From: Cohnella sp.
GTDB lineage: Bacteria > Bacillota > Bacilli > Paenibacillales > Paenibacillaceae
Assembly: GCA_028287445.1 (NCBI GenBank)
Contig: JAQBPQ010000030.1
Span: 21,443 to 85,442, forward strand
Length of the DNA: 64,000 nucleotides
Reading direction: 5' to 3'
Positions 38,824 to 41,494 of this stretch are shown here, one piece after another (position 1 is the first letter of the stretch; each line of letters opens with the position of its first letter). The notes beneath the pieces were generated by a model. That model searched no databases, was not told the origin of the DNA, and was given only the letters and a program-made list of their open reading frames with translations. A program made the translations under genes and the position numbers.

Positions 38824-38925
38824 CAAGTATAAACGGCTGTCGCCGTCCTTGGATGGCAGCATACGTTTATGTCGGTGACGTTTTCAGAAAAGTACAGGTG
38901 ACAACTTATACTTTCTGAAACGTTC
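38824..38925 (+). repeat. copy A of a two-hairpin intergenic element (candidate structured RNA or mobile element)
   Basis: ACAAGTATAAACGGCTGTCGCCGTC..GTTTATGTCGGTGA then hairpin ACGTTTtCAGAAAaGTA / TACTTTCTGAAACGT. Confidence 0.8.
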
Positions 38926-38955
38926 AAAAAGGGCCAACCCGATGGCTGGCCCTTT
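38926..38955 (-). terminator. terminator of second asp23-family gene
   Basis: Minus: GGGCCAgccatcgggtTGGCCCTTTTT. Confidence 0.75.
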
Positions 38956-38962
38956 ACCTCAC

Positions 38963-39352
38963 TTACTTTACCCGGTTCAATTCTTCGATTTCCTCATCCT
39001 TGAAGGTGACGCCTTCCACCTTCACGTTCACTTCGACCACGTGAAGGCCGGTCATGTTCTCGACGGTTTCCCTGACGTTATCCTGCAAGCGGCGGCCGAC
39101 CTCGTGGATTGGAATACCGTATTGGACGACGATGCGCAAGTCGATGGCCGCCTCCACTTGGCCGACTTCGACGGAAACGCCCTTCTGTGCGTTGCGGCCG
39201 CTGAGCCGTTTGGCCAGTCCTTCCGATATACCGCCCGACATGGCGGCGATGCCCGGCGTTTCCAACGCCGCGAGCCCGGCGATGGTGGCGACAACGTCAT
39301 CGGATATACGAATGAAACCTGCTTGCACCAATTCTTCCGTCATGGCGGCCAC
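38963..39352 (-). CDS. Asp23/Gls24 family protein
   Basis: VATIAGLAALETPGIAAMSGG...GRNAQKGVSVEVGQVEAAIDLRIVVQYGIPIHEVGRRLQDNV. Confidence 0.93.
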   Translation of the reverse strand: MAAMTEELVQAGFIRISDDVVATIAGLAALETPGIAAMSGGISEGLAKRLSGRNAQKGVSVEVGQVEAAIDLRIVVQYGIPIHEVGRRLQDNVRETVENMTGLHVVEVNVKVEGVTFKDEEIEELNRVK

Positions 39353-41104: not shown

Positions 41105-41207
41105 ACAAGGATAAACGGCTGTCGCCGTCGTCTTCACGACGGTAGATGTTTATGTCGGAGATCATTCAGAGATGAGCGCTTCAGCTTATAAATCCTGTAT
41201 GATCGAC
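41105..41207 (+). repeat. copy B of the two-hairpin intergenic element
   Basis: ACAAGGATAAACGGCTGTCGCCGTC..GTTTATGTCGGAGA then hairpin GATCATtCAGaGAT / ATCCTGtATGATC. Confidence 0.8.
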
Positions 41208-41240
41208 AAAAAGCACCCCGTCACGAACGGACGGGGTGCC
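41208..41240 (-). terminator. terminator of HPr-like gene
   Basis: Minus: GCACCCCGTCcgttcgtGACGGGGTGCTTTTT. Confidence 0.8.
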
Positions 41241-41254
41241 CTCAAACGCATGAA

Positions 41255-41494
41255 TTATTCCATTACTTTGACGTTCAGGTTATGCTTGGCGAACACCGCC
41301 GCCACTGCTTGCTTAGCCTCTTCCGCGTCCGGACCGTGCACATGAAGCTCGTATGCATGGTTGCCTACCAAAGTGGTGAACAGGCCCAGAATGCTTTTCA
41401 CGTCGATGTACTTGTTTTCGGCTTGGAGCACGACGGAAGAACGAAATTTGTTCGCCGTTTGGGACAATTCGACGATTGCCGCGTTGTTGGACAT
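41255..41494 (-). CDS. HPr/Crh-like protein lacking the His15 region
   Basis: QTANKFRSSVVLQAENKYIDVKSILGLFTTL; in-frame TAA and GGAGGG RBS directly upstream fix the start. Confidence 0.88.
   Translation of the reverse strand: MSNNAAIVELSQTANKFRSSVVLQAENKYIDVKSILGLFTTLVGNHAYELHVHGPDAEEAKQAVAAVFAKHNLNVKVME

Follow-up and report, generated by a model that had tools for sequence, protein, structure and literature searches.

What is the sequence with two hairpins that occupies two intergenic gaps of the window, that is, of the whole stretch of 64,000 nucleotides of Cohnella sp. DNA analysed here? A first-pass annotation had reported both copies and left two alternatives, a structured RNA or a mobile element that depends on its hairpins. 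Both copies (A and B) are present, with refined bounds (Table 1), and are two copies of one dispersed element of approximately 100 bp. The element is composed of CAAG, hairpin 1, a linker around TCGGAGA and hairpin 2, which is flush with the right end. The outer stem of hairpin 1 is ATAAACG/CGTTTAT in most Cohnella. Both copies fold into two hairpins, with z-scores of -4.8 (A) and -2.7 (B) for the + strand as RNA, and of -3.4 (A) and -4.1 (B) as DNA. The subtype of hairpin 2 differs between A and B, and each subtype recurs as a subfamily within the host genome. A and B each directly adjoin an intrinsic terminator. This adjacency, missed in the first-pass annotation, is the main feature of the element.

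Table 1. Positions of copies A and B, their parts and the adjoining terminators in the window
Feature	Position	Strand	Evidence
Copy A, hairpin-2 subtype I	38824..38923	+	cmsearch, 102 bits; subtype I copies at unrelated loci elsewhere in the genome are up to 95% identical to it
Copy A, left end CAAG, nearly invariant in the family	38824..38827	+	Sequence comparison among copies
Copy A, hairpin 1 (ATAAACG...CGTTTAT outer, GCCGTC/GATGGC inner)	38829..38870	+	Folding and pairing tests
Copy A, hairpin 2, which extends to the last base of the element	38878..38923	+	Folding and pairing tests
Copy A, target T-tract, TTTTTGA on the - strand	38924..38930	-	Sequence; family-wide flank profile
Terminator of the Asp23-family gene 38963-39352 (-), hairpin GGGCCA...TGGCCC; presumed to predate the insertion as its target	38931..38952	-	Sequence; Cohnella comparison
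Copy B, hairpin-2 subtype II	41106..41204	+	cmsearch, 88 bits
Copy B, target T-tract, TTTTTGTC on the - strand	41205..41212	-	Sequence; family-wide flank profile
Terminator of the HPr-like gene 41255-41494 (-), hairpin GCACCCCGTC...GACGGGGTGC; presumed to predate the insertion as its target	41213..41239	-	GC hairpin also in the other Cohnella compared

The host draft genome harbors at least 40 copies, as found by a search of its own whole assembly (45 rows, a few of which are antisense hits to its palindromic part, hence at least 40 places). Further copies in related genomes, proposed by the first-pass annotation as a check, were looked for with a covariance model built from 34 copies. The model has matches in 31 of the 37 Cohnella genomes searched and, across 11 of 19 genera, in 138 of 300 Paenibacillaceae genomes. 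The Cohnella genomes have from 0 to at least 110 matches each, counts that include some low-scoring antisense matches, and species of this one genus differ widely in copy number, some having 0 and others more than 80. When 201 Bacilli were sampled with the model, nine genomes had a match, all of them Paenibacillaceae, and the element was absent from every other Bacilli family in the sample. Outside Paenibacillaceae there is a single pattern match (L195), in which the remaining parts of the element are missing. Carriage by phages was also considered and rejected, the element pattern not being found in viral contigs. The comparison with Rfam that had likewise been proposed gave no match, either for the whole window at gathering scores or for the element region down to E = 1, and no earlier description was found in the open-access literature searched. 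The family spans a whole bacterial family, yet has no Rfam entry. As an isolated case, a degenerate copy (L038, 1504-1597, genome G016) lies directly upstream of a dnaN-like gene, in its probable leader, with no obvious adjoining terminator.

The first-pass annotation held that in hairpin 2 the pairing and not the sequence is conserved. Across the family this stands: in 60 non-redundant copies, 452 of 480 cells of the outer eight pairs are Watson-Crick, against at most 340 in shuffled arms, and 34 distinct 3' arms are present. The contrast between A and B, taken alone, is a difference between subfamilies. Hairpin 1 behaves similarly in the same 60 copies (428 Watson-Crick cells, shuffled maximum 377, 22 distinct arm sequences). 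In these shuffles the arms were dealt anew, the start was re-chosen and the maximum of 500 shuffles was taken; the relatedness of the copies is left in place by this procedure, although 34 and 22 different arms are nonetheless present. The hairpin-2 arms of the further copies pair as well, and neither of the two outcomes named in the first-pass annotation as refuting it was therefore obtained. Copies from Paenibacillus have the same architecture with other stems, such as GTGAAACG/CGTTTCAT in hairpin 1 and AAATATAAG/CTTATATTT in hairpin 2. The pairing of both stems is kept through many sequence changes. The wobble pairs, from which + polarity had been proposed, are common in one hairpin only. 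Hairpin 1 has many G.T pairs when read on the + strand, which fits a folded + strand, and the + strand folds better than the - strand in 51 of the 60 copies. In the outer stem of hairpin 2 wobble is very rare in both senses (10 G.T and 6 A.C in 610 cells), which fits a DNA palindrome.

The two flanks of the element differ. When 128 right flanks were aligned on the element end, the profile nAAnAAAA was obtained, with A in 61, 89, 70, 85, 80 and 60% of the flanks at positions 2, 3, 5, 6, 7 and 8, while the left flanks are random. A run of four or more A lies within 25 bases in 88 of 128 right flanks and in 19 of 130 left flanks, and a GC stem is found in 47% of right flanks, as against 9% of left flanks and 13% of random stretches, its modal start being 8 bases from the element. 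For about one right flank in two, the simple finder detected no strong stem, owing to decay, truncation or the limits of the finder. On the other strand, the order is terminator stem, T-tract and element, which starts at the end of the T-tract; on the better-folding strand, the fixed target is 3' of the element. Attenuators of T-boxes are also targets, with leaders that stop approximately 26-31 bases from the element (L106 and L118), so that some insertions separate a riboregulator from its gene. In 82 of 114 clusters both neighbouring genes are on the - strand relative to the element, as read by a home-made gene caller, so that the space occupied by the element is mostly bounded by one gene's terminator and by the start of the following gene. 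Among the element-bearing gaps 82 are tandem, an arrangement expected in 56%, and 10 are convergent, which is rarer than expected.

The region with ftsW, asp23 and the HPr gene is syntenic in the 20 other Cohnella compared, and a complete element was found in none of them at either site. At site A, the gap in these genomes has no element, and a terminator-like hairpin is visible by eye in most; at site B, a terminator-like GC hairpin downstream of the HPr gene was seen in the other Cohnella compared. Since the terminators persist in related species without the element, the copies are lineage-specific insertions. Site B carries a left-truncated copy of another subtype in genome G044 and a right-truncated copy, of a subtype other than that of B, in G043, each beside the terminator, which suggests that the HPr terminator served as a target in at least three lineages independently. 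G043 and the near-empty G017 form a near-clean pair of filled and empty sites. The genomes G039 and G045 gave no clean empty sites, as their intergenic regions are too diverged. No target duplication was seen over 128 copies, with none above shuffled pairs. Other repeats were noticed in intergenic regions. The ftsW/Asp23-family gap of G006 (L296) measures 824 bp and contains a different tandem repeat, TTAGCCAACCTTCGGCGG...GGTACTCTC, while in other Cohnella it has approximately 100-170 bp. Tandem intergenic copies of GTTAGTCGATTTTTTCGACTATCGCACC, another unrelated repeat, are present in G039 (L173, 9850-10400).

Copies of the element also stack head to tail without spacers, with subtypes mixed. 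Within homogeneous arrays the units are mostly 92-99% identical and look, from their sequences, like tandem duplications. In mixed arrays the nearest relatives of the units sit elsewhere in the genome. In the arrays of G000 the more uniform subtype I adjoins the terminator, and in several arrays of G039 the common subtype is found on the opposite side, next to the CAAG end of the copy already in place. By sequence reading, the left end of the element and the target are alike, a stem being preceded by CAAGYAWAAACGGC in the former and by nAAnAAAA in the latter, and this resemblance would make both positions understandable.

We favour, with a probability of about 0.7, a mobile DNA repeat that is non-autonomous, measures approximately 100 bp and inserts precisely after intrinsic terminators. 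On the terminator strand, insertion would take place directly 3' of the T-tract, giving the order hairpin-TTTTnTTn, insertion point, hairpin 2'-hairpin 1'-TTTATRCTTG. The far end of the element, which has hairpin 1 and then the T-rich 10-mer, would imitate the target, and an inserted copy may act as a new landing site, which would explain the spacerless arrays of mixed subtypes. A recombinase acting in trans may recognise hairpins in single-stranded or cruciform DNA, in the element and the terminator alike. Mobility, one of the two alternatives originally given, is well supported by the dispersal of the copies, their lineage-specific presence at conserved terminators, the stacking of mixed subtypes and the varying copy number. 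On the other side, no partner gene was found, and any movement, excision or circular form of the element is putative. The right flanks in which no strong stem was detected also count against this explanation, as does the scarcity of convergent gaps, which plain terminator targeting does not predict; as a speculation, a need for negative supercoiling in hairpin extrusion could account for this scarcity.

To our knowledge, landing at the ends of terminators has been described mainly for a single class of group II introns. A group IIC intron is a ribozyme with domain V and an intron-encoded reverse transcriptase. The element could be copied from RNA by a reverse transcriptase and placed behind terminators as these introns are, perhaps by their protein acting in trans. 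Target choice and polarity match, since group IIC introns insert directly after intrinsic terminators in fixed polarity, according to PMC4424553 (citing Robart 2007), and group II maturases are present in most high-copy genomes. However, the element has only 100 bp, too small for a domain V ribozyme or a reverse transcriptase, with no ribozyme match in Rfam and no encoded protein. No maturase was found in G039 or G046, and copy number does not follow maturase number. The element is abundant in G046 (21 matches), where no reverse transcriptase was found, and G039 (at least 110 matches) has a broken fragment only, although a loss after spreading is possible. This makes insertion through RNA unlikely. 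Another possible origin is a miniature element, REP-like or derived from IS200/IS605, on whose single-stranded hairpins a Y1 (HUH) transposase would act. It would account for a hairpin at each end, the lack of terminal inverted repeats and target duplication, and the one better-folding strand. REP/REPIN sequences, with their RAYT transposases, are similar to the element in that they are short hairpin repeats outside genes, numerous in their genomes and seemingly mobilised in trans. The element differs from them in its length of approximately 100 bp, its two unlike hairpins and its terminator-specific target. The tag of REP sequences is a conserved tetranucleotide at the hairpin foot; beside hairpin 1 of the element CAAG is conserved, which is not of the GTAG type, being neither GTAG nor CGTC. 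The fixed target of IS200/IS605 is 5' of the element, not 3' as here, and a Y1 transposase is missing in G000, G006, G031 and G044, all of them many-copy genomes. We consider this origin quite unlikely.

Two further explanations were considered. A putative regulatory RNA, read from the + strand and multiplied by duplication, would agree with the conserved linker and with the better folding of the + strand, which is due mostly to G.U pairs in hairpin 1. Its flanking genes, however, would be mostly antisense to it (the 82 of 114 clusters mentioned above), its presence is lineage-specific, and hairpin 2 has no wobble pairs. Of the two original alternatives, the structured RNA thus has little in its favour beyond folding; it is improbable and is not needed to account for the element. 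Hairpins kept by selection behind terminators, as an accessory that helps to insulate or protect, would suit the position and the preference for tandem gene gaps, but in 20 species no complete copy accompanies the orthologous terminators, truncated copies and tandem arrays occur, and several Cohnella genomes have no match. Such a role seems very improbable.

Returning to the mobile DNA repeat, other known systems and partners were compared. Dispersed non-coding mobile repeats are known in Bacillales, such as bcr1, which is counted among bacterial MITEs (PMC3733652). The element is like them in these respects, but its ends are unlike each other, and its target is a hairpin with a T-tract; the terminal inverted repeats and target duplication of a MITE derived from a DDE transposon are both absent. 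A Y2 transposase, as in IS91, is present in 3 of 10 high-copy genomes and missing in 7. As obligatory partners, Y1, Y2, group II maturase and reverse transcriptase were each rejected, being missing from some high-copy genomes. These absences test present need and not origin, because draft assemblies can lose genes and a partner may have been lost after spreading. Some IS110/IS1111 members insert at hairpin structures, and IS110 genes are present in all 10 high-copy genomes tested. The ends read in these genomes are unlike the element and elements are not enriched near IS110, which was therefore rejected as partner. Separately, IS110-family copies lie inside or beside another small hairpin repeat, TAACGGCTGCGACAGCCGTTATTTTTACG, in G006 (L340, L348 and L365, at about 1270-1330). 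Split elements, in which the two hairpins would enclose a gene, were looked for and none was found; this negative is weak, as the hairpin-2 finder missed many known copies.

In its choice of target the element resembles group IIC introns, and in its lifestyle it resembles REP repeats; by the features tested it belongs to neither group. It is possible, though we propose it tentatively, that an undescribed recombination system moves these 100-bp hairpin elements and docks at the terminator itself, either folded as a DNA hairpin or inside the termination complex; inserted copies would offer the docking site again and build arrays, and none of the known hairpin- or terminator-targeting enzymes tested would be required. 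By targeting terminators, a mobile repeat would be able to multiply in dense genomes while doing little damage, and the precise landing point makes terminator hairpins directly testable as recombination sites. Near one copy of the element, in G031, a match to the Rfam BsrC sRNA was found (L107, 1683-1769, 64.9 bits).
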